Below, one piece after another: positions 2,129-54,920 of a DNA stretch of 55,020 nucleotides. The notes below the pieces were generated by a model. That model was given only the letters and a program-made list of their open reading frames with translations. It searched no databases and was not told where the DNA came from. The stretch lies in the NCBI GenBank assembly GCA_903891095.1, contig CAITDI010000129.1, forward strand, positions 1-55,020, given 5' to 3'. Each line of letters starts with the position of its first letter. Position 1 is the first letter of the stretch. The translations under genes and the position numbers were made by a program. Origin of the DNA: an uncultured bacterium (lineage in GTDB: Bacteria; Planctomycetota; Phycisphaerae; Phycisphaerales; SM1A02).

Positions 2129-2818
2129 ATGCAAGGCAAGATGCAAGGCAAGATGAATGTGTCCGTTGTTTCGTGCGCCGCGATGCTCGCGGTTGGTTCC
2201 ATGCTCGTCGGCTGCAACACCGCGAAGAAGTCCGAAGTCGCGCTCCTCAAGGAGGAGAACTCGCAGCTGACCATGAAGCTCGAGGAGACCAACACCGCGC
2301 TCGAAGGCGCGCAGCAGGATCGCCGCCGCCTCGAGGAAGAGAACGCCAAGCTCAAGGCCGCCGCCAACGAGAAGCCCGTTGTCGCCACCACCGAGACCGC
2401 GCCCGCCGCGAAGCCCGAGCCCGTCGTCGACATGGGTCCTGACGTCACCGTCGAGCACCGCGATGGCGCGCTCGTCCTCACCATCGCGAGCGACGTGCTC
2501 TTCGACTCCGGCAAGGCCGCGCTCAAGCCGAACGCGAAGAAGACCCTCGACCGCGTCGTCTCCGAGATCAAGAAGAAGTACCCGACCAAGCCGCTGCGCT
2601 TCGCGGGCTTCACCGATCAGGATCCGATCAAGAGCAGCGACTTCAAGACGAACTACCACCTCGGCTTCGAGCGCGCGTTCAACGTCGGCCAGTATGTCGT
2701 GACGCACGGCATCGACAAGTCGCTCATCGAGTACTCGTCGTACGGCCCCGAGCAGCTCAAGAGCTCGAAGAAGCAGTCGCGCCGCGTCGAGATCGCGATC
2801 GTGAACGCCGACAACTGA
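2129..2818 (+). CDS. OmpA-family outer-membrane lipoprotein with coiled coil
   Basis: The start at 2129 is chosen because GGAAGGG lies 11 nt upstream and a lipoprotein signal follows at once; ATGs at 2141 and 2153 are also in frame. The lipobox is LVGC with C29. Residues ~38-80 are a charged heptad-rich coil (LLKEENSQLTMKLEETN...), then a Pro/Ala linker, then a C-terminal OmpA/MotB peptidoglycan-binding domain (FDSGKAALKPNAKKTLD, ending in SRRVEIAIV). Such proteins tether the outer membrane to peptidoglycan. The domain is somewhat divergent at the usual NxxLSxxRA position (NYHLGFERA). A strong terminator follows the stop. Confidence 0.85.
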   Translation: MQGKMQGKMNVSVVSCAAMLAVGSMLVGCNTAKKSEVALLKEENSQLTMKLEETNTALEGAQQDRRRLEEENAKLKAAANEKPVVATTETAPAAKPEPVVDMGPDVTVEHRDGALVLTIASDVLFDSGKAALKPNAKKTLDRVVSEIKKKYPTKPLRFAGFTDQDPIKSSDFKTNYHLGFERAFNVGQYVVTHGIDKSLIEYSSYGPEQLKSSKKQSRRVEIAIVNADN

Positions 2819-2860
2819 TCGCCGCTCCTCGCGCGACAGGCATCCGCAATCTGCATCAAG

Positions 2861-2890
2861 AACACGGCCCCGCGCAAGCGGGGCCGTGTT
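2861..2890 (+). terminator. Rho-independent terminator after the OmpA-type lipoprotein gene
   Basis: A perfect 13-bp stem (AACACGGCCCCGC pairing with its complement at 2878-2890) is closed by a GCAA tetraloop and followed on the plus strand by a T-rich tract (TCTTTCGTTTCG). It lies 42 nt after the stop at 2818, and the converging minus-strand MlaD gene ends at 2936. The T tract is only on the plus-strand side. Confidence 0.85.
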
Positions 2891-2935
2891 TCTTTCGTTT
2901 CGTTTCGTTCGTCGATCAAGCGCTTGCGCGCCGGG

Positions 2936-3943
2936 TCACTTCGAGAAGAGCTCGACTCCCAGGCCTTCCGCGCGAATCTTGTCGAGCAGCAGGTTGAGCT
3001 TGGCGAGCGCCTCGTCGAGCCGCTTAGCGGAATCGGCGAGACCTTCATACAGCGCGGGATCCTGCATCATGCGGCCGACCGTGCCCTTGCCGGTGCGCGC
3101 GGCGGCGACCGTCAGCTCGAGCTCCTGCAGCGTCGCGCTCGCGCGGTCAAGCACGGGCAGCGCGCTCGCGCGCAGGCTTGCGGCATCGCTCGCGAGCGAA
3201 TCGGCGAGCGTGCCGATCTTGTTCGCAGTCACGTTCGCGTCGCGCATCAGTTCGCTCGCGCCGTGCGCCGCGTCGCGGATGTCGGTGCGCATCTGCTCGT
3301 CGTCGAGCCAGGTCTTGGCGCTCTTGAGCGTCGCGTCGGCCGACGCAAGCGTGTCATTGAGGCGCTTGACCGCGGTGCGGATGCTGTCGGGGCTCGGCTG
3401 CTGCCCATCCGGCGGAGCCTGCACGAGTTCGTTGAGGTTGTGCGCGAGCTTCTGGATCTCGGCAAAGCCTTCCATCAGCGGCGTCATCTTCTGGTCGAGC
3501 GACTCCATCAGGCGCGCCTCGATCGGCTGGACCCGTCCGCGCAGGATCGTCTCCTTGTCGCGCGGATACGTGCGCGGCGGAACCGCAAGCGGCAGGGCCG
3601 CCGTCAGCTCGAGCCGTGCGCCGCTGCCGAGCAGCGAGGCCTGGATCGTCGGCGTGCTCGGATCGGGTACGCGCACTTCCTGGTTGATCGCCGCGGTCAC
3701 GAGCACCGGCTGCGACGCGTCGCCCCAGAACTCCACGCGCTCGATCGCGCCGATCGGCACGCCGTTGAGCGTGACGAGGCTGCCGCGGCGAAGTCCGCCC
3801 GCGTCGTTGAACGCGACCTTCATCTGCCAGCGCTGCGCGAACATCGGCTCGAACTCGCCGAACAGGAACAGCAGCGCCGCCAGCGAGCCCAATGCTCCGA
3901 TGGTGCAGAGTCCGACCATGACATTGCGCACTCGTTCTCTCAT
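2936..3943 (-). CDS. mlaD: MCE/MlaD-family lipid-transport substrate-binding protein
   Basis: The 335-residue protein has a single N-terminal membrane anchor (about 9-29, VGLCTIGALGSLAALLFLF) and an MCE domain (about 37-115) with FNDAGGLRRGSLVTLNGVPIG and later LLGSGARLEL. A long, mostly helical C-terminal region follows (about 150-335). MCE proteins form periplasmic rings or tubes that carry phospholipids between the inner and outer membranes and work with an MlaE permease and MlaF ATPase. The MlaF-type ATPase lies directly upstream on the same strand (gap 88 nt). The matching permease is 14.7 kb away at 18664-19500. Confidence 0.88.
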   Translation of the reverse strand: MRERVRNVMVGLCTIGALGSLAALLFLFGEFEPMFAQRWQMKVAFNDAGGLRRGSLVTLNGVPIGAIERVEFWGDASQPVLVTAAINQEVRVPDPSTPTIQASLLGSGARLELTAALPLAVPPRTYPRDKETILRGRVQPIEARLMESLDQKMTPLMEGFAEIQKLAHNLNELVQAPPDGQQPSPDSIRTAVKRLNDTLASADATLKSAKTWLDDEQMRTDIRDAAHGASELMRDANVTANKIGTLADSLASDAASLRASALPVLDRASATLQELELTVAAARTGKGTVGRMMQDPALYEGLADSAKRLDEALAKLNLLLDKIRAEGLGVELFSK

Positions 3944-43540: not shown

Positions 43541-44869
43541 TCAGTCTGCGTCCGGCGCGACACGCGTAATGATCTTCGCCACCACGCAGTCGCCCCAGAC
43601 GTTCACGGTGGTGCGCGACATGTCGACGATGCGGTCGACGCCCATGATGATGCCGACGGCGGCGACGGGCAGCGGTGCGACGCCGCGTGATGCAAGCGCG
43701 GCGTTGACGGCGGAGATCACGATCACAAGCGTGACGAGGCCCGAGCTCGGGATGCCCGCGGTTCCGACTGCGGCCAGCACGCTGGTCGCCACGACGAGCA
43801 CGATCTCGGAGAAGCCGAGTTGCACGCCGAACAGCTGGAAGAGGAACAACGCGACCACCGCTTCGTAGAGCGCGGTGCCGTCCATGTTCATCGTCGCGCC
43901 GAGCGGGATCACGAAGTTGGTCGAGCGCCGCGAGCAGCCGCCGTCGGTCACGCAGGATTCGATCGCGACGGGAATCGTCGCGTTGGAGCTGCTCGTCGAG
44001 AACGCCGTCAGCAGCGCGCGGCGCACGCTCCACATGAACTTCCAGCCGTTTCCGCCGCCAAACGCGCGGCAGAACAGCGGCAGCACGATGAACGCGTGCA
44101 CGCAGAGTCCGAGGATCGCCACGCCGATGTAGCCGAGCACGGGTGCCGCGACGTTCTGCAGGCCGATGCGCGCGACCACGCCGGTCACGAAGAAGAACAA
44201 CCCGACCGGCATCACCCATAGGATCCAGCTGATCACGCGCATCACGCCTGCGAGCAGCGCCGAGAGCACGTCAAGCGCCGCGCGCCCGCGTTCGCCGACG
44301 CTCGCCAGGCCGAGCCCGAGCAGGAGCGCGCAGAAGATCGTGCCGATCGTGTTGCCTTCGACCGCGTCCTTGAGCGGGTTCTTCGGCACGACCTGCGAGA
44401 GGATCGAGAGCCATGCGCCGCCGACGCCGGTCGATGTCGCGGACTGCATGCGTTCGGCGCGCGCAGCGTCGGCTGCGAACGTCTGCTGGCCTTGCGCGAC
44501 CAGCGCCGCGCGCGCTTGATCGCTCACGCCTGCGCCCGGCGCGAACCACTCGATCAGCGCGGCGCCGAGCACCGCGGCCATGAGCATCGAGAGCACATAG
44601 AGCACGGCGGTCGCGCCGCCGATCCTGCCGAGCTGCGACGGCGTTCCCACCGACGCGATGCCGCAGCACACGCTGAGGAACACGACGGGAATCACCAGCA
44701 TCTGCAGCGGACGAACGAGCAGGTACTCGCCCGCGATGCTCCAGAAGCCCGCGACATCGCCACCCTGTGCGTGCAGCATCTGGCCCGTCAGGATCGCAGC
44801 AAACAGCGCCCCGAAAAGCAGGGCGGTTTGCAGTTTGGTTCCGCGGAATGCAGTGCCAGGAGTCGCCAT
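43541..44869 (-). CDS. Dicarboxylate/amino acid:cation symporter (DAACS family)
   Basis: The 442-residue polytopic membrane protein resembles GltP/DctA glutamate and dicarboxylate carriers. It has the Ser-rich reentrant loop STSSSNATIPVAIES, the cation/substrate motif VIPLGATMNMDGTALYE, and the second reentrant region GTAGIPSSGLVTLVIVI. An extra soluble stretch (about 112-165, QQTFAADAARAERMQ) is inserted early. Substrate is not resolvable by eye, but glutamate, aspartate or C4-dicarboxylates are likely. It lies downstream of aspS on the same strand. TAGGAT 12 nt before the ATG suggests its own leaderless promoter. Confidence 0.9.
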   Translation of the reverse strand: MATPGTAFRGTKLQTALLFGALFAAILTGQMLHAQGGDVAGFWSIAGEYLLVRPLQMLVIPVVFLSVCCGIASVGTPSQLGRIGGATAVLYVLSMLMAAVLGAALIEWFAPGAGVSDQARAALVAQGQQTFAADAARAERMQSATSTGVGGAWLSILSQVVPKNPLKDAVEGNTIGTIFCALLLGLGLASVGERGRAALDVLSALLAGVMRVISWILWVMPVGLFFFVTGVVARIGLQNVAAPVLGYIGVAILGLCVHAFIVLPLFCRAFGGGNGWKFMWSVRRALLTAFSTSSSNATIPVAIESCVTDGGCSRRSTNFVIPLGATMNMDGTALYEAVVALFLFQLFGVQLGFSEIVLVVATSVLAAVGTAGIPSSGLVTLVIVISAVNAALASRGVAPLPVAAVGIIMGVDRIVDMSRTTVNVWGDCVVAKIITRVAPDAD

Positions 44870-44898: not shown

Positions 44899-46701
44899 TT
44901 ACGCCTTCGCGGGTTCGACCGGCGCCGTGCTGCGCACGTGCGTCTCGACCAGCTGGTGCGCGTCGACCGGGCCCGGCGCATCCGTCATGAGATCCGCGCC
45001 CGACTGCGTCTTCGGGAACGCGATCACGTCGCGGATGTTGTCGGTGCCGACGATGTGCATGACGAGGCGGTCGAGGCCGAAGGCGATGCCGCCGTGCGGC
45101 GGGGCGCCGTGCTTGAGCGCGTCGAGCAGGAAGCCGAACTTGACCTTCGCGTCATCCTGCGTGAGGCCGATGAGCTCGAAGACCTTGGCCTGGACCTTCT
45201 GGTCGTGGATGCGGATCGAGCCGCCCGCGATCTCGCTGCCGTTGAGCACGAGGTCGTAGCCGGCCGACAGGCAGCCGCCCGGATCGGTGCCGAGGATGCC
45301 GAACTGATCGGGATTCGGGCTGGTGAACGGATGGTGCAGCGCAACCCAGCGCTTGCCGTCGTCGTCCCACTCGAACATCGGGAAGTCGACGACCCAGAGG
45401 AAGTTCCACTTGCCCTCGGGCACGATGCCGAGGTCGCGCGCCATCTTCTGGCGGAGTTCGCCGAGCGTCTTGGTCGCGATGTCGTAGTGGTCCGCGGCAA
45501 AGATCACGATGTCGCCTTGCTGCAGGCCGAGCTTGGCGATGAGCTCCGCCTTGACCGGCTCGCAGAACTTGGCGACGCCCGTCTCGAAGCCGTTGGCGCC
45601 GAGCTTGGTGTACGGAATGCCACCGGCCCTGAAGGTCTTCGCGAACTCGCTGTAGCCGTCGAGCACCTTGCGGGTGAGCTTCTCGTTCGGAGTCGGCACG
45701 CGGATCGCCTTGACGACGCCCTTGCGGCCGTTCTTCGACTTCTCGAGCGCTTCCTTGAACACGACGAACTCGGTCTTGGCCGCGATGTCGGAGACGTCGC
45801 AGGTCTCGAGGCCGTAGCGCGTGTCGGGACGGTCGATGCCGAAGCGCTCCATCGCATCCCAATAGGTGATGCGCGGCACTTCGCCGATGTCGTAGTTGAA
45901 CAGCTCGGTCCACAGGCCGCGCGCGAAGCCCGTCATCATGTTCATGACGTCCTCGCGCTCGACGAAGCTCATCTCGAGGTCGATCTGCGTGAACTCGGCC
46001 TGGCGGTCGGCGCGCGGATCCTCGTCGCGCATGCACTTGCAGATCTGCAGGTAGCGGTCGCAGCCCGCGACCATCAGGATCTGCTTGAAGAGCTGCGGGC
46101 TCTGCGGCAGCGCGTACCACTTGCCCGGGTGCAGGCGGGCCGGCACGATGAAGTCGCGCGCGCCCTCGGGCGTGGTCTTGATGAGCAGCGGCGTCTCGAT
46201 CTCGAGGAAGCCGTTCTGGCTGAAGTAGTCGCGCGCGAACTTGGTGATGCGCGAACGCGTGCGCAGGATGTGCTGCATGCGCGGACGGCGCAGGTCGATG
46301 TAGCGGTACTTGAGGCGCGTCTCTTCGCCGATCTTGTCGGCGTCGCGGTCGTCGGGCAGGATCGGCGGCGGCTCGGCGGCGTTGAGCAGCTCGAGCTTGT
46401 CGGCGACGATCTCGATCTCGCCCGAGGCGAGGTTCGGATTCGCGCCGCCAGCGCGCACGCGCACCTTGCCGGTCACGCCGATCACGTACTCGCGGCGCAG
46501 CGTGCGCGAGAGTTCGATGAGGTCGGCGCGGGACTGCTCGAGGTCGAACACGACCTGGCAGAGACCCTCGCGGTCGCGGATGTCGGCAAAGATCAGACCC
46601 TTGCCTTGGTCGCGGTACGTGTTGACCCATCCGCAGATGGTGACGGTCTGTCCGACGTGGCTCGCGCGAAGCGAACCGCACATGTGAGAGCGCTTGAGCA
46701 T
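44899..46701 (-). CDS. aspS: Aspartyl-tRNA synthetase, bacterial type
   Basis: The 600-residue class II synthetase has an N-terminal OB-fold anticodon domain (MLKRSHMCGSLRASHVGQTV... to RVRAGG), motif 2 CMRDEDPRADRQAEFTQID, an inserted GAD domain (about 290-420) and motif 3 GIAFGLDRLVM. It charges tRNA-Asp. Whether it also misacylates tRNA-Asn cannot be told by eye, and no gatCAB is in the window. TACCAT lies 16 nt before the ATG on the minus strand (46717 down to 46712), so the leader would be only a few bases. Confidence 0.96.
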   Translation of the reverse strand: MLKRSHMCGSLRASHVGQTVTICGWVNTYRDQGKGLIFADIRDREGLCQVVFDLEQSRADLIELSRTLRREYVIGVTGKVRVRAGGANPNLASGEIEIVADKLELLNAAEPPPILPDDRDADKIGEETRLKYRYIDLRRPRMQHILRTRSRITKFARDYFSQNGFLEIETPLLIKTTPEGARDFIVPARLHPGKWYALPQSPQLFKQILMVAGCDRYLQICKCMRDEDPRADRQAEFTQIDLEMSFVEREDVMNMMTGFARGLWTELFNYDIGEVPRITYWDAMERFGIDRPDTRYGLETCDVSDIAAKTEFVVFKEALEKSKNGRKGVVKAIRVPTPNEKLTRKVLDGYSEFAKTFRAGGIPYTKLGANGFETGVAKFCEPVKAELIAKLGLQQGDIVIFAADHYDIATKTLGELRQKMARDLGIVPEGKWNFLWVVDFPMFEWDDDGKRWVALHHPFTSPNPDQFGILGTDPGGCLSAGYDLVLNGSEIAGGSIRIHDQKVQAKVFELIGLTQDDAKVKFGFLLDALKHGAPPHGGIAFGLDRLVMHIVGTDNIRDVIAFPKTQSGADLMTDAPGPVDAHQLVETHVRSTAPVEPAKA

Positions 46702-46711
46702 TGAGGGCGGG

Positions 46712-46717
46712 ATGGTA
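46712..46717 (-). promoter_or_regulatory. Putative -10 TACCAT for aspS
   Basis: GCTACCAT on the minus strand, 16 nt before the aspS start, again of GCTAnnnT form. No T-box or other leader RNA structure fits the short gap. Confidence 0.35.
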
Positions 46718-46794
46718 GCGATTTCCCGCGTGGACGAGGCACGATCACGATGTCTTCATCCGCAGGTTCATGTGCGGGAATCGCCTGCATTCGC

Positions 46795-46800
46795 TAGGCT
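46795..46800 (+). promoter_or_regulatory. Putative -10 TAGGCT placed for leaderless start of lpxB
   Basis: GCTAGGCT: the hexamer begins 13 nt before the ATG at 46808; the spacer CCCGACC has no Shine-Dalgarno. Confidence 0.45.
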
Positions 46801-46807
46801 CCCGACC

Positions 46808-47983
46808 ATGTCGGCCGATCGCAAGGTCATCCTCTTCACGGCGCTGGAGCCATCGGGCGACGCACACGCGGCGCCCGTGATCGCGCGCCTGCGCGCCGAG
46901 TACCCCGACATCGAGCCCGTCGCCTGGGGCGGACCCAAGATGGAGGCCGCCGGCGCCACCATGCTCGGCCGCACCGCCGACGACGGCGTGATGGGCATCA
47001 AGGGCGTCTCGCGCGCCCTCGAAGTGCGTGCGCTCCACAACACGATCGTCGAGTGGGCAAGCAAGAATCCCGTCGCCGTGCACATGCCGGTCGACAGCCC
47101 GAGCGCGAACTACCCGCTCTGCGCGCGGCTCAAGCCGATGGGCGTCAAGATCGTCAACCTCGTCGCGCCGCAGCTCTGGGCGTGGGCGCCGTGGCGCATC
47201 AAGAAGGTGCGTCGGCTGAGCGACGTGCTGCTGTGCCTCCTGCCGTTCGAGGAGCAGTGGTTCCGAGTCCGCGGCGTGACCGCGAAGTTCGTCGGCCATC
47301 CGCTGCTCTCGAAGTCGCTCGAGGAGTCGGGCTTCGTTCCGAACACCGATGCGTTCCCCGCGGGCGCGCCGCACATCCTGCTGCTTGCAGGCTCGCGCTC
47401 GAGCGAGGTGCGCGCCAACGCGCGGCTGCTGCTCGACGCGTTCCTGCTCGTGCGATCGCGGACGCCGGGCGCGGTGGCGGTGGTCCTGGCGTCGAACGAA
47501 GCCAACGCGGGGCATTTCCGCAAGGCGATCGGCGGCGAGCCGCCCGCGGGCGTGCACATCGCCGTGAGCGACATCGAGAGTGCGGTCTACTGGTCCGATC
47601 TCGCGCTCGCGGTGTCGGGCACGGTCAGCCTCGACTGCGCGCGCCAGGCCAAGCCCATGATCGGCGTCTACCGGCTGAGCCGGCTTGAGGTCTGGGGCGC
47701 GAAGCTCCTCGTCCGAGCGCCGCATCTGCTGCTGCCGAACATCCTCGCGGGCCGCCGAATCGTCCCCGAGTTCGTCCCATACGCGGGCGGCCCCGAGCTC
47801 ATCGCGGCGAGCGCGCTCGAACTTCTGCAAAACGGCGTGCGAATGCAGCGAACGAGGGAAGACCTCAGGCAGGTCGCGGCGTCGTTCCGCGGCTTCGATC
47901 CAGCCCGCATCTGCGCGGAGGTCGCGGCAAGGGTCGCTCGCGGTCAACCGATGACCAACGAAATCCTCGACGGGATCTCGTAA
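46808..47983 (+). CDS. lpxB: Lipid-A-disaccharide synthase
   Basis: The 391-residue glycosyltransferase (GT19) joins two acylated glucosamines to make the lipid A disaccharide. It shows TALEPSGDAHAAPVIARL at the N-terminus, WGGPKMEAAGATML, MGIKGVSRALEV, the family region HMPVDSPSANYPLCARLK, VAPQLWAWAPWRIKKV, FVGHPLL, LLAGSRSSEVRAN and the UDP-binding VSGTVSLDCARQAKPMIGVYR. Its presence implies an LPS-bearing outer membrane. The start at 46808 follows a candidate leaderless promoter; the frame opens further upstream but would overlap the aspS promoter. Confidence 0.93.
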   Translation: MSADRKVILFTALEPSGDAHAAPVIARLRAEYPDIEPVAWGGPKMEAAGATMLGRTADDGVMGIKGVSRALEVRALHNTIVEWASKNPVAVHMPVDSPSANYPLCARLKPMGVKIVNLVAPQLWAWAPWRIKKVRRLSDVLLCLLPFEEQWFRVRGVTAKFVGHPLLSKSLEESGFVPNTDAFPAGAPHILLLAGSRSSEVRANARLLLDAFLLVRSRTPGAVAVVLASNEANAGHFRKAIGGEPPAGVHIAVSDIESAVYWSDLALAVSGTVSLDCARQAKPMIGVYRLSRLEVWGAKLLVRAPHLLLPNILAGRRIVPEFVPYAGGPELIAASALELLQNGVRMQRTREDLRQVAASFRGFDPARICAEVAARVARGQPMTNEILDGIS

Positions 47984-48021
47984 GCGGTCGTTCGCGTGCG
48001 CTTCATCGACTCCCTGAACGG

Positions 48022-48100: not shown

Positions 48101-49297
48101 ATGCTCCAGTTTGCTCGCCTGACCACTGTGCTTGGATCGCTCGCCATCGCCGCGACTGCGTTCGCCGCCGATTCGATCAAGATCATCTCGAGCCTGCCGC
48201 GCACCGGCAGCGCCAACGCGCAGACGACCAGCATGGTCAACGGCATCAAGATGGCCATCGCCGAGGTCGGCACGATCAACGGCGCGACCATCCTGTACGA
48301 AGACTGGGACGACGCCAGCGCGCAGCGCGGCAACTGGGATCCCGCCGTCGAGGCCGCGAACGCCGACAAGGCGATCGCCGACAAGTCGATCCTCGCGTAC
48401 ATCGGGACCTACAACTCGGGCGCGAGCAAGATCTCGATGCCCAAGCTCAACGCCGCCGGCCTCGTGATGGTCAGCCCCGCGAACACCGCGCCGAACCTCA
48501 CCAAGCCCGGCTTCGGCGAGCCGAACGAGCCCGCCGTCTACCGCCCGAGCGGCAAGATCAGCTACTTCCGCGTCGTCCCGACCGACGACGTGCAGGGCGC
48601 CGTCGCCGCCGACTTCGCCAAGGAAACCGGCGCGAAGAAGGTCTTCGTCCTCAACGACCGCGAGGTCTACGGCAAGGGCGTGGCCGGCGTGTTCGAGAAG
48701 CACGCGAAGGAAATCGGCCTCGAGGTCGTCGGCACCGACGGCATCGACGCCAAGGCCTCGAACTACAAGAGCGTCGTCACCAAGATCAAGCAGGCGGGCG
48801 CGGACCTCGTCTACTTCGGCGGCACCACGCAGACCAACGCGGGCCAGCTCGCGAAGGACATCGTGACCGTCGGCCTCAAGGCGCGCCTGATCGTGCCGGA
48901 CGGCTGCTACGAGCAGGCGTTCATCGAGGCCGCTGGCGCCAAGGCCCTCGAAGGCCGCGCCTTCATCACCTTCGGCGGCAAGGAGCCCAAGGCGCTCACC
49001 GGCAAGGGCAAGGACTTCTACGAGAACTACAAGAAGGCCTACGGCGGCGAGCCCGAGGGCTACGCGGTCTACGGCTACGAGTCGGCCAAGGTCGTCCTCA
49101 CCGCGATGCAGAACATCGCCAAGGCCGGCGGCAAGCTGACGCGCGAGAGCGTGCTTGCGGAGGTCGCCAAGACGAAGAACTTCTCCGGCGCGCTCGGCAC
49201 GTGGAGCTTCGACGCCAACGGCGACACGACCAACCGCACGATGAGCGTGAACACCGTCAAGGACGGCAAGTTCGAGACCGTCAAGGTCGTCGAGTAA
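48101..49297 (+). CDS. Branched-chain amino-acid-type ABC transporter substrate-binding protein
   Basis: The 398-residue periplasmic binding protein (type I, LivJ-like) has a signal peptide (MLQFARLTTVLGSLAIAATA, cleavage after AFA). The binding-protein fold shows ISSLPRTGSANAQTTSMVNGIKMAI, YIGTYNSGASKISMPKLNAAGLVMVSPANT, YFRVVPTDDVQGAVAADF and later VYGYESAKVVLTAM. The two-lobed LivJ layout suggests leucine, isoleucine, valine or a related amino acid or amide as ligand; the ligand cannot be fixed by eye. GAAGGAACC precedes the ATG. It heads an operon with two permeases and two ATPases. Confidence 0.9.
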   Translation: MLQFARLTTVLGSLAIAATAFAADSIKIISSLPRTGSANAQTTSMVNGIKMAIAEVGTINGATILYEDWDDASAQRGNWDPAVEAANADKAIADKSILAYIGTYNSGASKISMPKLNAAGLVMVSPANTAPNLTKPGFGEPNEPAVYRPSGKISYFRVVPTDDVQGAVAADFAKETGAKKVFVLNDREVYGKGVAGVFEKHAKEIGLEVVGTDGIDAKASNYKSVVTKIKQAGADLVYFGGTTQTNAGQLAKDIVTVGLKARLIVPDGCYEQAFIEAAGAKALEGRAFITFGGKEPKALTGKGKDFYENYKKAYGGEPEGYAVYGYESAKVVLTAMQNIAKAGGKLTRESVLAEVAKTKNFSGALGTWSFDANGDTTNRTMSVNTVKDGKFETVKVVE

Positions 49298-49411: not shown

Positions 49412-50389
49412 ATGACACCAACCGAAGTCTTCATGCAACAGGTCATCTACGGCCTGTCCAACGGCATGATCATCGCCCTCGTGGCGCTCGGTTACACGAT
49501 GGTGTACGGCATCGTCGAGCTGATCAACTTCGCGCACGGCGATCTGTTCATGCTCGGCGGGTTCTTCGCGCTCACGATCGTGGGCGCGCTGGGCGCGGCG
49601 GGGGTGCTCGACATCGCGCACATGGGCGATCACTCGAACTGGCTGCTGCTCTTCGGGCTGGTGATCGCGGCGGGCGTCTTCTGCGGCGGACTCAACGTCG
49701 CGATCGACCGCGTCGTCTACAAGCCGATGCGCAAGTCGCCCAAGCTCACGCAGCTGGTCGCGGCGATCGGCGTGAGCTTCATCATCGTCAACCTCGGCCT
49801 CTTCTGGGGCGGCGCTCCGATGGAGGTCTTCGGCGGCGGCAACGCGGCGGCGGCGAGCAAGGATTTTCCCGAGATCCTCGAGGGCTCCAACCTCCTCGGC
49901 GAGGACTCGAACATCGTGCTGCGCCTTGAGGATCTCGCGATCTTCATCGTGACGATCCCGCTGATGATCGCGCTGACGATCTTCGTCAAGAAGACGCGCC
50001 TCGGCCGCGGCATGCGCGCGACCGCGCAGAATCCCGTGGCCGCGAAGCTGATGGGCATCGACACCGACCGCGTCATCTCGGCGACCTTCCTCATCGGCGG
50101 GTTCCTCGGCGGCGCGGCCAGCGTGATGTGGTCGCTCTACAACAACACGATCTCGTTCCAGATGGGTTTCCGCGCGGGCATGGATGCGTTCACCGCGGCC
50201 GTGCTCGGCGGCATCGGCAGCATGCCTGGCGCGATGCTCGGCGGCGTCCTGATCGGTCTCATCCGCGCGATGAGCGACCAGTACATCGAGACGCGCTGGA
50301 CCAACGTCGTCGTGTTCGGCGTGTTGATCCTGATCCTGGTGTTCCGTCCGAGCGGCCTGCTCGGGCTCAAGCAGCGGGAGAAGGTCTGA
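49412..50389 (+). CDS. livH: Branched-chain amino-acid-type ABC permease, LivH
   Basis: The 325-residue permease has about eight helices and family motifs: YGLSNGMIIALVALGYTMVYG, LINFAHGDLFMLGGFFAL, ARATAQNPVAAKLMGID-like sequence (MRATAQNPVAAKLMGID), and AFTAAVLGGIGSMPGAMLGG. An insert with GGGNAAAASKDFPEILEGSN (about 143-165) is a periplasmic loop longer than in E. coli LivH. livM starts 1 nt after its stop. Confidence 0.93.
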   Translation: MTPTEVFMQQVIYGLSNGMIIALVALGYTMVYGIVELINFAHGDLFMLGGFFALTIVGALGAAGVLDIAHMGDHSNWLLLFGLVIAAGVFCGGLNVAIDRVVYKPMRKSPKLTQLVAAIGVSFIIVNLGLFWGGAPMEVFGGGNAAAASKDFPEILEGSNLLGEDSNIVLRLEDLAIFIVTIPLMIALTIFVKKTRLGRGMRATAQNPVAAKLMGIDTDRVISATFLIGGFLGGAASVMWSLYNNTISFQMGFRAGMDAFTAAVLGGIGSMPGAMLGGVLIGLIRAMSDQYIETRWTNVVVFGVLILILVFRPSGLLGLKQREKV

Positions 50390-50390
50390 C

Positions 50391-51419
50391 ATGTCGGCGC
50401 TGCAGCGGTTCTCGCTCTTCTCGCGCGGCCAGCTGGTGGTCCTCGGACTGCTGGCGATGGTGCCGCTCGTCGATCTGTTCGTCCCCGGCGTGCAGCTTGC
50501 TGCGCCGATGCGCAACGTGATCGTGTTCGCGATCCTCGCGCTCGGGCTCAACATCGTCGTAGGATGGACGGGCCTGCTGCATCTCGGCATCGCGGCGTTC
50601 ATGGCGATCGGCGCGTATGCGTTCGGCATCCTGACGTGCGAGATCTACCCGTTCCAGGTGGGCTTCTGGTGGGGCGTGATCCTCGCGGGTCTCATCGGGG
50701 CGTTCGCGGGCTGGCTGCTCGGCGCGCCGACGCTGCGCCTGCGCGGCGACTACCTCGCGATCGTCACGCTCGGCTTTGGCGAGATCGTGCAGGACGCGCT
50801 CAAGAACCTCGAGATCATCACCAAGGGCACGCAGGGCATCAATCCGCTGCCCGCGCCGACGTTCCCCGGCTTCGTGATGTCGGCGGAGCATCCGTTCCCG
50901 TGGTTCTACCTGTACCTCGGGATCCTCGCGGTGATCGTGTTCCTCTGCCGCAACCTCGAGTTCAGCCGGCTTGGTCGGCAGCTCTTCGCGGTGCGTGAGG
51001 ATGAACTCGCTGCGCGCTGCATGGCGATCAGCCCCGACAAGGCGAAGCTCAAGGCGTTTGCCTTCGGTGCGGCGCTCGCGGCGGTGGCGGGGGCGCTCAG
51101 CGCGAGCCTGCTCTCGTCGACCGGCGAGCCGAGCAACTACGACTTCCAGATCTCGATCCTCGCGCTGTGCATCGTGATCGTCGGCGGCATCGGCTCGATC
51201 ACGGGCGTGCTCGTCGGCGCGATCGTGATGGTCGGCCTCAACAACGTCGTGCTGCCGCAGGCCACGCAGGCGCTGCAGCGCCACGGCGTCGACTCGACGG
51301 CCAACGTGCTCTCGTCGCCCGACAACTACAAGTACATGCTCTTCGGCCTCGCGCTCGTCCTGATGATGCGCTACCGCCCCGACGGCATCGTGTATTCGCG
51401 GAAGGCGGCCCGCAAGTGA
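50391..51419 (+). CDS. livM: Branched-chain amino-acid-type ABC permease, LivM
   Basis: The 342-residue permease shows NVIVFAILALGLNIVVGWTGLLHLGIAAFMAIGAYAFGI, LRLRGDYLAIVTLGFGEIV, AVREDELAARCMAISPDKAKLKAFAFGAALAAVAGAL, and GGIGSITGVLVGAIVM. These are diagnostic of LivM. A polar loop follows near the C-terminus with YRPDGIV. Its stop overlaps the next gene's GTG start by 4 nt (GTGA). Confidence 0.94.
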   Translation: MSALQRFSLFSRGQLVVLGLLAMVPLVDLFVPGVQLAAPMRNVIVFAILALGLNIVVGWTGLLHLGIAAFMAIGAYAFGILTCEIYPFQVGFWWGVILAGLIGAFAGWLLGAPTLRLRGDYLAIVTLGFGEIVQDALKNLEIITKGTQGINPLPAPTFPGFVMSAEHPFPWFYLYLGILAVIVFLCRNLEFSRLGRQLFAVREDELAARCMAISPDKAKLKAFAFGAALAAVAGALSASLLSSTGEPSNYDFQISILALCIVIVGGIGSITGVLVGAIVMVGLNNVVLPQATQALQRHGVDSTANVLSSPDNYKYMLFGLALVLMMRYRPDGIVYSRKAARK

Positions 51420-52465
51420 GTGCGGACGCGACTTCACTGCTCTCGGTGCAGAAGGTCACCATGCGCTTCGGCGGCCTGACGGCCGTCAAGGACGTGTCGG
51501 TCGACGTCGCGCGGGGCTCGATCACCGCGGTGATCGGTCCGAACGGCGCGGGCAAGACCACGCTGTTCAACGCGATCACCGGGGTCTACGAGCCGACCGA
51601 GGGCACCGTGCTGGTCTCGGGCCGCGATCCGAGTCGGCAGCTGACGCCCGCGGTGATCGCGGGCGCGGCGACGACAGGCGTGGCGACGGCGGTCTTTCTC
51701 GCGATCCTCGTGCGCGTCGAGGCGCTGTGGAAGGCGTCGGTCATCGACCTCTACGTCTATCAGCAGGCGTTCCCGTGGGGCAAGGCGATCGCTGCGTTCT
51801 TCGCCACGCTGTTTGGCGGCGGATTCGTCGGCACTTGGCTGCCGATGCTGCTCGGGCTTGTGCTCGGCGCGAGCGGACGCATGGTCATCTGGTCGCGCAC
51901 GCGACGCACGCCCGACGTCGTCGCGGGCGCAGGCGTCGCGCGCACGTTCCAGAACATCCGGCTCTTCCCCGACCTCTCGCTCGTCGAGAACGTGACCGTC
52001 GGCATGGACCGCCGCCTCTCGAGCGGCATGGTCGCGGCGGTGCTCGCGCTGCCGTCCGCACTCCGCGAGCGCATGACCGCGCGTGCCGAGGCGATGAAGT
52101 TGCTCGAGTTCGTCGGCCTCGCCGACAAGGCCGAGGAGGCCGCGGGCAACCTGCCGTACGGCCATCAGCGCCGACTCGAGATCGCGCGCGCGCTTGCCTC
52201 GCGCCCCGACGTGATCCTGCTCGACGAACCCGCCGCGGGCATGAACCCGACCGAAGCCGTCGACCTCATGCGCCTCATCAAGGCGATCCGCGACGCAGGC
52301 ACCACGGTCGTCCTGATCGAGCACCACATGCGCGTCGTGATGGGCATCTCCGATCGCATCAACGTCCTGCAGTACGGCGAGAAGATCGCCGAAGGCACGC
52401 CGATCGAGATCAAGAACGACCCGCGCTGCATCGAGGCCTACCTCGGCAAGGAGGAACTCGGATGA
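51416..52465 (+). CDS. livG: LivG-type ABC ATPase carrying a membrane-like insert
   Basis: The 349-residue ATPase is about 95 residues longer than typical LivG (about 255). Walker A GPNGAGKT (41-48), Q-loop TFQNIRLFP (177-185), signature LPYGHQRRLEIARAL (246-260), Walker B DVILLDEPAAGMNP (265-278) and H-loop IEHH are present. In the normal LivG, only ~20 residues separate GRD (after Walker A) from GIARTFQN. Here ~90 extra residues (about 75-167) intervene, with two hydrophobic runs: IAGAATTGVATAVFLAILV (81-99) and AIAAFFATLFGGGFVGTWLP plus MLLGLVLGA (124-152). GTG start, overlapping livM. The usual Q after YG is H. Confidence 0.9.
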   Translation: MSADATSLLSVQKVTMRFGGLTAVKDVSVDVARGSITAVIGPNGAGKTTLFNAITGVYEPTEGTVLVSGRDPSRQLTPAVIAGAATTGVATAVFLAILVRVEALWKASVIDLYVYQQAFPWGKAIAAFFATLFGGGFVGTWLPMLLGLVLGASGRMVIWSRTRRTPDVVAGAGVARTFQNIRLFPDLSLVENVTVGMDRRLSSGMVAAVLALPSALRERMTARAEAMKLLEFVGLADKAEEAAGNLPYGHQRRLEIARALASRPDVILLDEPAAGMNPTEAVDLMRLIKAIRDAGTTVVLIEHHMRVVMGISDRINVLQYGEKIAEGTPIEIKNDPRCIEAYLGKEELG

Positions 52466-53190
52466 GCGCGCTGCTCGAGATCAAGGGGATCGTCGCCGGC
52501 TACGGTTCCGTCGAGGTGCTGCACGAGGTTTCGCTCACGGTCAACGAGGGCGAGATCGTCACGCTCATCGGCGGCAACGGCGCGGGCAAGTCGACCACGC
52601 TCATGTGCACCTCGGGCATCGTGCCGCTGCGCGGCGGCGAGATCCACTTCGCGGGCGAGCGCATCAGCGCAGCCGGCGGTGGCGTGCGCGCCGACAAGCT
52701 GGTCGGCCGCGGCCTCGTGCAGGTCCCTGAAGGCCGCCGCATCTTTCCGCGCATGACCGTGCTCGAGAACCTGATGATGGGCGCCTACGGCCGCGACGAC
52801 AAGGCCGGCATCGCCGCCGATCTCGAGAAGGTCTACGCGCTCTTCGACATCCTCAAGCAGCGCTCGGCGCAGCTCGGCGGAACGCTCTCGGGCGGCGAGC
52901 AGCAGATGCTCGCGATCGGCCGCGCGATCCTCTCCAAGCCGCGCCTGCTGATGATGGACGAGCCCTCGATGGGCATCGCGCCGATCCTGGTCGCGAACAT
53001 CTTCCGCGCCGTCGCGCAGCTCAACCGCGAGGGCCTCACGATCCTGCTCGTCGAGCAGAACGCGAACGCCGCGCTCAGGCTCGCCCGCCGCGGATACGTG
53101 CTCGAGACCGGCCGCGTGACGCTCACCGACGATGCGGGCAAGCTCCTCGTCGACCCGCGCGTCCGCGAGGCGTATCTCGGCGATTCGTGA
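52462..53190 (+). CDS. livF: LivF-type ABC ATPase
   Basis: The 242-residue ATPase has Walker A GGNGAGKS (about 38-45), VQVPEGRRIFPRMTVLENLMMGAY, signature LSGGEQQMLAIGRAI, Walker B LLMMDEPSMGIAP and the LivF end motif VEQNANAALRLARRGYVLETGR. It pairs with LivG to drive uptake. It starts with ATG overlapping the livG stop by 4 nt. It has no insert, unlike its partner. Confidence 0.94.
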   Translation: MSALLEIKGIVAGYGSVEVLHEVSLTVNEGEIVTLIGGNGAGKSTTLMCTSGIVPLRGGEIHFAGERISAAGGGVRADKLVGRGLVQVPEGRRIFPRMTVLENLMMGAYGRDDKAGIAADLEKVYALFDILKQRSAQLGGTLSGGEQQMLAIGRAILSKPRLLMMDEPSMGIAPILVANIFRAVAQLNREGLTILLVEQNANAALRLARRGYVLETGRVTLTDDAGKLLVDPRVREAYLGDS

Positions 53191-54722: not shown

Positions 54723-54920
54723 CGGTGCCTGGCACCAACCAGGCACCACCCGCAGACCAACCGTGCGAACCAGGACGGTGCACGGCACCAGCCTCAAGAC
54801 GCGGTTGGGTCGTTGCGATCTGGTCATAGGAGCCGACTTGGCGGTGCACGGTTGGTGACTGGTGGGCATGGTTGGTGCCAGGTTGGTGCCAGGTTGGTGC
54901 ACGGTTGGTGCCAGGCACCG
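54723..54920. repeat. Inverted-repeat cluster built from GGTTGGTGCC / GGTGCCAGGCACC words
   Basis: An 18-bp perfect inverted repeat (CGGTGCCTGGCACCAACC at 54723-54740 with its complement at 54903-54920) bounds the region. Between the arms GGTTGGTGCCA recurs in tandem with 11-nt steps near 54870-54915 (variant GGTTGGTGCAC), and complementary ACCAACC words occur near 54733 and 54763. GGTGCCTGGCACC is itself nearly palindromic. It resembles REP/BIME-type extragenic elements. Confidence 0.7.

Follow-up and report, generated by a model that had tools for sequence, protein, structure and literature searches.

Importer nucleotide-binding domains (NBDs) are regarded as soluble engines that touch the permease at its cytoplasmic loops and nowhere else. 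A livG gene in a 55,020-nucleotide stretch of DNA from an uncultured planctomycete (the window, by which we mean the whole stretch analysed) raises the question of whether such an ATPase can itself be built into the membrane. A first-pass annotation of this DNA had read the gene as an unbroken frame encoding 349 residues in place of about 255, and had proposed that the ATPase may be membrane-tethered by itself. We confirmed the length and the frame, which is open throughout and begins at a GTG codon. Here we ask what the extra residues are, how widely they are shared, and whether they are likely to cross the membrane.

We found that livG belongs to a five-gene operon, SBP-livH-livM-livG-livF, in which Pfam matches and open reading frames place all genes on the forward strand (Table 1). 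The start of the gene for the substrate-binding protein (SBP) was picked by eye at MLQFARL; the open reading frame itself opens at 47996. The first codon of livG, GTG, belongs to four bases (GTGA) that it shares with the livM stop, and the livF ATG in turn overlaps the livG stop. LivF had been described as normal, and Pfam agrees: it is an uninterrupted ABC ATPase. The livG product is the sole LivG of its genome, the next ABC ATPase match being at 1.3e-30. Upstream of the operon lie three genes that, from their translations, we take to encode a dicarboxylate symporter-like protein (43541-44869, complement strand), an aspartyl-tRNA synthetase-like protein (44899-46701, complement strand) and a lipid-A-disaccharide-synthase-like protein (46694-47983, forward strand). 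Downstream of the operon, at 54870-54915, an 11-base unit, GGTTGGTGCCA, is repeated in 4.2 copies.

Table 1. Features of the liv operon and of the LivG insert, in window coordinates.
Feature	Position	Strand	Basis
Substrate-binding protein (Peripla_BP_6)	48101..49297	+	Pfam PF13458, 6.1e-45
livH permease (BPD_transp_2)	49412..50389	+	Pfam; NCBIfam LivH 6.8e-66, under that model's cutoff
livM permease (BPD_transp_2)	50391..51419	+	Pfam; NCBIfam LivM 1.9e-57, under that model's cutoff
livG with intramolecular membrane hairpin (predicted), 349 aa	51416..52465	+	sequence, Pfam, NCBIfam, alignment, AlphaFold2
Insert, about residues 73-167	51632..51916	+	family LivG alignment; gap relative to 16 insert-free LivGs
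TM1 (predicted), residues 78-99	51647..51712	+	AlphaFold2 helix; hydropathy maximum 2.10 at 80-98
Short helix 101-110 with invariant W105	51716..51745	+	AlphaFold2, alignment
Amphipathic helix 121-133, invariant F119 just before	51776..51814	+	AlphaFold2, alignment, moment
TM2 (predicted), residues 136-161, then basic stretch containing R163	51821..51898	+	AlphaFold2, alignment
livF, ordinary ABC ATPase	52462..53190	+	ABC_tran 2.3e-29, one stretch; start from ORF list

As the first-pass annotation had held, the nucleotide-binding motifs outside the insert are intact: we read Walker A (GPNGAGKT), the Q-loop (TFQNIR), the signature (LPYGHQRRLEIARA), Walker B (VILLDEP) and EHH. The protein matches the ABC ATPase family (PF00005) at E 3e-30 with all motifs present, including the switch histidine, and carries the BCA_ABC_TP_C tail (PF12399; 36.2 bits against a cutoff of 25.5). 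ABC_tran matches in two stretches, the better of which stops at residue 74. Similarly, the best NCBIfam model, the LivG equivalog NF008449, matches in two stretches, and its 274.9 bits miss the curated cutoff of 362. The insert is not the reason for this shortfall, because three insert-free planctomycete LivGs that match in one stretch also score under the cutoff (286.2, 297.2 and 305.5 bits).

In the window LivG, 132 residues separate the Walker A glycine and the Q-loop strand, compared with 43-48 in 16 insert-free LivGs; the approximately 89 extra residues fall between these two motifs. In the sequence and the model, the insertion point follows the antiparallel beta subdomain and precedes the short helix that leads to the Q-loop. 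When the insert was searched alone, no Pfam or NCBIfam family matched at E 0.001.

We modelled the window LivG alone with AlphaFold2 from a 21-row alignment (mean pLDDT 88.4, pTM 0.79). The insert is confidently modelled, 10-residue blocks over residues 71-160 having pLDDT values of 89-96, and contains four helices (Table 1), of which the two long ones, TM1 and TM2, span 22 and 26 residues. A prediction of LivG alone had been proposed along with the original reading, which placed hydrophobic runs at 81-99 and 124-152. Two segments are indeed present, but their boundaries had to be moved, to 78-99 and 136-161: the run at 124-152 is not one unit, since it blends the amphipathic helix 121-133 with the first part of TM2. 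The amphipathic moment of helix 121-133 was equalled in 12 of 2000 shuffles. An amphipathic character for helix 101-110 is unsupported, as 1293 of 2000 shuffles reach the same moment. Fold searches with the whole model returned solely NBD matches among the 50 listed per search.

We found the insert throughout the window's family. A protein search of the window's genome and 100 relatives recovered an insert-bearing LivG in 22 of 101 genomes. Of these, 14 (the window's own included) belong to its genus, and the remaining 8 represent other genera of the family. Every LivG found in the family carries the insert (22/22), so that the search of Phycisphaerae homologs suggested by the first-pass annotation bore out a shared trait. 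The best matches in the remaining family genomes (7e-15 to 1e-23) are far weaker than the 1.3e-45 of an insert-free LivG from another family of the order (L023, genome G089), and hence we count no insert-free LivG as found in the window's family. In all 21 aligned family LivGs, the stretch matching residues 71-172 is 98-103 residues long, and W105, F119, G147, G151, W159 and R163 are invariant in the insert. The best 19-residue hydropathy means for the two insert segments are 1.73-2.49 and 1.28-2.18, compared with at most 1.33 outside; both segments top all outside values in 20 of 21 sequences, the exception being L013 (second segment 1.28, outside 1.30). In one locus, L014 (G003:C18), livM runs straight into livG at about 1490-1510 and the N-terminal 41 residues of LivG are missing, as they also are in L043; in L014 this is either a deletion or an assembly join in an otherwise intact operon. 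Compared with the window LivG, L014 has about 18 additional residues in its hairpin loop.

Within the genus (13 sequences, 78 pairs), the median dN/dS is 0.293 for the insert (76 usable pairs) and 0.107 for the NBD, figures that are rough because the median dS exceeds 1. The insert thus changes at roughly three times the rate of the NBD and, judged from these codon comparisons, is under purifying selection.

The trait extends beyond this family, to at least two classes of Planctomycetota. Of 397 genomes from the window's class, 15 gave a match to the insert alignment, and every one of the 15 belongs to the window's family. A scan with the same alignment of one genome per species (84,980 species) yielded 41 loci from 104 pattern-matching stretches; because it relied on one exact peptide pattern, it passes over most of the divergent members and is a weak test of other phyla. 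The titles of these loci name Planctomycetota, planctomycete groups or an uncultured bacterium, except for two 'Kuenenia', itself a planctomycete, and two 'Bacteroid' entries, L061 and L070. The L061 protein is almost identical to L018, a member of the window's family, and the L070 genome shares its class with the genome that carries the Gemmataceae locus L071. A LivG model matched 97 of 392 genomes of a phylum sample at E 1e-60; among the best 30 of those loci, 14 have a long insert, including L100 with four segments, and 16 lack it, one of them with a gap of 71. At E 1e-89, the class that includes the Gemmataceae genome G797 gave matches in 61 of 397 genomes; this count takes in matching genomes only, and the other 336 may include insert-free LivGs. 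Further searches at this threshold matched 1 of 23 genomes in the class of G703, 6 of 23 in the order of G607, 1 of 2 in the class of G478 and 0 of 12 in the class of G611. Insert-free LivGs exist in the same phylum (L023, L101-L116).

To follow the history of the insert, we used an NBD tree from which the insert was left out (113 rows; quick search, unrooted, modest support). Thirteen near-copies were omitted from the trees; the clade tests additionally excluded L023. The hairpin LivGs cluster on this tree, with short and long loops intermixed, indicating that loop length is labile. The hairpin rows have no insert-free row among them; since hairpin-bearing models were used to gather the rows, most losses of the hairpin would have gone unseen. 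On the free tree without L023, three changes are needed to explain insert versus no insert. A tree constrained to keep the 93 hairpin rows together had a p-AU of 0.88 and a likelihood above that of the quick free search, and the clade with L096 and L098 added (95 rows) gave a p-AU of 0.877; neither constraint is rejected. Adding L100, which groups with insert-free LivGs on the tree, lowered the likelihood by 30.9 log units, though this clade too escapes rejection (p-AU 0.151). The simplest account of these sequence comparisons is a single origin of the hairpin, followed by growth or loss of loop domains; the four-segment insert of L100 is probably of separate origin. Transfer of the hairpin livG between lineages may also have occurred.

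These data bear on whether the insert does anything at all. It could be a neutral, tolerated insertion, a hairpin that crosses the membrane and does nothing beyond leaving the ATPase undisturbed. Its fast evolution relative to the NBD, the labile loop length and the presence of ordinary LivGs in the same phylum would all suit such a history. The purifying selection on the insert argues against it, as do the six residues held invariant across 21 family sequences and, with the caveat that the rows came from hairpin-bearing models, the lack of insert-free rows among the hairpin LivGs. On balance, we consider a neutral insertion unlikely.

We then compared the inserts themselves. Among 126 distinct LivG cores, the gap between Walker A and the Q-loop is 43-48 residues in 16, 71 in one (L105) and 125-369 in 109; the core-collecting pattern gave none for 19 loci, which include L014, L043, L052, L057, L061, L063, L082, L097, L160, L165 and L177. 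The 109 insert-bearing cores comprise 70 short (125-137) and 39 long forms. Two segments exceed the hydropathy threshold in 94 of them, one in 13, three in one and four in one, the last being L100 (G478:C120; gap 183), whose insert has the same insertion point. The loop between the helices ranges from about 30 to about 280 residues: it is about 30-45 in the short form and, where both segments pass the threshold, 80-278 in the long forms. In a long-loop Gemmataceae LivG, L071, AlphaFold2 (27-row alignment A4; mean pLDDT 88.9, pTM 0.72) modelled TM1 at 72-94, helices at 96-105 and 117-128, a beta-beta-beta-alpha unit at 133-172, and a single continuous helix at 196-241, the end of which is TM2. 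Two further members, L175 (G996) and L176 (G955), carry two EF-hand loops between the hairpin helices, with the residue spacing canonical for EF-hands. The L175 loop alone matches PF13202 (EF-hand_5; 28.6 bits against 25.9) and PF00036 (EF-hand_1; 27.2 against 25.4). EF-hand matches at E 0.01 or better were found in 2 of 30 members scanned whole; EF-hands excepted, the long loops gave no Pfam match above cutoff. The topology of L175 and L176 is less sure than that of other members because both are among the 13 cores with a single segment above threshold.

Do the helices cross the membrane? Walker A and the Q-loop both have to be cytoplasmic, and therefore two full crossings would place the loop outside the cell. 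Loops that range from about 30 to about 280 residues, some with domains or EF-hands, thus fit a true crossing with an exposed outside loop. The distribution of charge points the same way: in equal 8-residue flanks, the mean number of K+R is 1.76 before TM1 and 2.56 after TM2, and 0.58 and 1.44 on the loop side. The NBD side is the richer in 89 of 108 sequences (6 equal, 13 opposite), and with unequal flanks in 95 (4 equal, 9 opposite). For the window LivG, prediction gives two hydrophobic helices, an even number, with basic flanks inside. Hydropathy is not a membrane test and AlphaFold2 does not model membranes, both LivGs having been modelled as single chains, so that the topology rests on hydropathy and prediction. 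With this basis, we consider it likely that the LivG hairpin crosses the membrane.

A different arrangement would have the helices stop short of crossing, either as a re-entrant or monotopic hairpin or as a greasy brace on the cytoplasmic ends of LivH/LivM. The short-form loop, at just 30-45 residues or so and with one clearly amphipathic helix, could accommodate this, and the 13 of 109 cores with a single segment past the hydropathy threshold lean in the same direction. The modelled helices of 22 and 26 residues argue against it. So do the 80-278 residues, in two cases with EF-hands, that relatives place between the same helices, and the concentration of K+R on the NBD side. We therefore judge a non-crossing insert to be quite improbable. 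The structural half of the original proposal, an ATPase tethered to the membrane by itself, is supported by prediction and comparison: the length and even number of the helices, the K+R bias and the expansion of the loop into domains.

An assembly or frame artefact, or a pseudogene, is scarcely credible and was rejected: the window's genome is a 131-contig assembly, but livG is an open frame with low dN/dS, and dozens of assemblies made independently share the insert, several of them containing multi-megabase contigs. In the class of G797, all 62 matches were fetched, one of them, in G1030, cut by a contig end; some lie on contigs of 6.6-10.1 Mb, which makes chimeric assembly unlikely. The first-pass annotation had named two outcomes that would count against its reading, a prediction lacking membrane helices and an insert confined to a single sequence with signs of assembly error. 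We looked for both and found neither.

The first-pass annotation had proposed to check whether the insert tracks with this operon. The gene order SBP, livH, livM, livG, livF, with all five on one strand, is found in 63 of 75 livG loci of at least 6 kb; the remaining 12 comprise 11 that are cut short by the end of the locus or contig, and L147, which has its SBP gene on the opposite strand. In complete genes of hairpin operons, LivH has about 8 hydrophobic segments (7-9) and LivM 7-10, and LivM of insert-free operons likewise has 7-10. Since LivH and LivM keep their hydrophobic segments, the hairpin comes on top of an ordinary permease. Only 4 hydrophobic segments appear in the frame that we took to be LivH in the four-segment lineage (L186). 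LivM of the insert-free operon L023 (LivM at 2259-3512, G089) carries two additional hydrophobic segments close to its C-terminus, neither of them present in the window's LivM, which makes it a case of membrane insertion in a different subunit of this system. This had raised the idea that the hairpin compensates for helices lost from LivH/LivM; we rejected it as a rule because the segment counts overlap. In two loci, livG and livF share one open frame: L136 (G835), with the hairpin, and L101 (G561), without it.

From these results, the reading that we favour, with somewhat better than even confidence, is that the window LivG is the NBD of a branched-chain-amino-acid-type importer that was turned into an integral membrane protein by insertion, and whose hairpin serves as a brace between the ATPase and LivH/LivM. 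Two membrane-length helices would exit the NBD after the antiparallel beta subdomain and re-enter just before the Q-loop. The hairpin may pack beside LivH/LivM as extra helices and keep the ATPase docked, in which case LivG would assemble as a membrane protein. In the short form, the helices of the loop would lie near the outer membrane surface, where the loop could contact the outer face of the permease or the binding protein; long loops may present a small docking or sensor domain to the SBP or to ions. TM2 would then link the loop domain mechanically to the strand whose last residue is the glutamine of the Q-loop. The 13 of 109 cores that show a single clear segment lower the odds for this reading a little. 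Tethering is the main role that we would assign to the hairpin, and we think this rather likely; a sensing role is possible though doubtful. As to the other half of the original proposal, the hairpin may change assembly or regulation.

A bolder version of the sensing role, which we consider tentative and on the whole unlikely, holds that the ATPase itself reads the cell exterior: the loop, which in L175 and L176 would be a calcium-type EF-hand pair, would sense the SBP or ions and pass a signal via TM2 into the Q-loop, parallel to the route from permease to ATPase. It also treats the insertion point as a repeated entry site for membrane segments, because L100 has four hydrophobic segments there. 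If the hairpin reading is correct, a clade of membrane-spanning ATPases would be a natural experiment on the rewiring of NBD-permease coupling next to the Q-loop, through which ATP hydrolysis is coupled to transport, and signals from outside would gain a direct route to the ATPase. The variety of loops (helices, a small domain, EF-hands) would offer ready-made variants for tests of this coupling.

How does this protein compare with known systems? Its fold is that of LivG MJ1267 and of LptB; the NBD aligns with LivG/BraF of the HAAT (LIV-I) importers, as represented by MJ1267 (PDB 1g6h, 1g9x, 1gaj), at Z 28.2-28.8. The window LivG shares with the HAAT LivGs the best NCBIfam model, the BCA_ABC_TP_C tail and the operon. 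Known HAAT LivGs are soluble proteins of about 255 residues, the length of the model; in contrast, the window LivG carries 89 additional residues within its NBD, and two TM helices are predicted in them. Closer to hand are the insert-free planctomycete LivGs of the same phylum (L023, L101-L116), with LivM detected beside 15 of 17, which have a gap of 43-48 residues in 16 cases and 71 in L105, and no hydrophobic segment there. An abstract-level literature search, which covered few subscription journals and no preprints, found no description of a membrane hairpin inside LivG or another NBD. Fusions of liv subunits follow a different design: the LivG-LivF fusions in L101 and L136 join subunits end to end, as LivM-LivG fusions also do, whereas the hairpin is inserted within the NBD. 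Extra NBD elements are also known from the regulatory insertion of CFTR and the C-terminal domains of MalK and MetN, all of them cytoplasmic, and most placed at an end of the chain or in a different loop. Like these elements, the hairpin could regulate transport, but unlike them it is predicted to cross the membrane.
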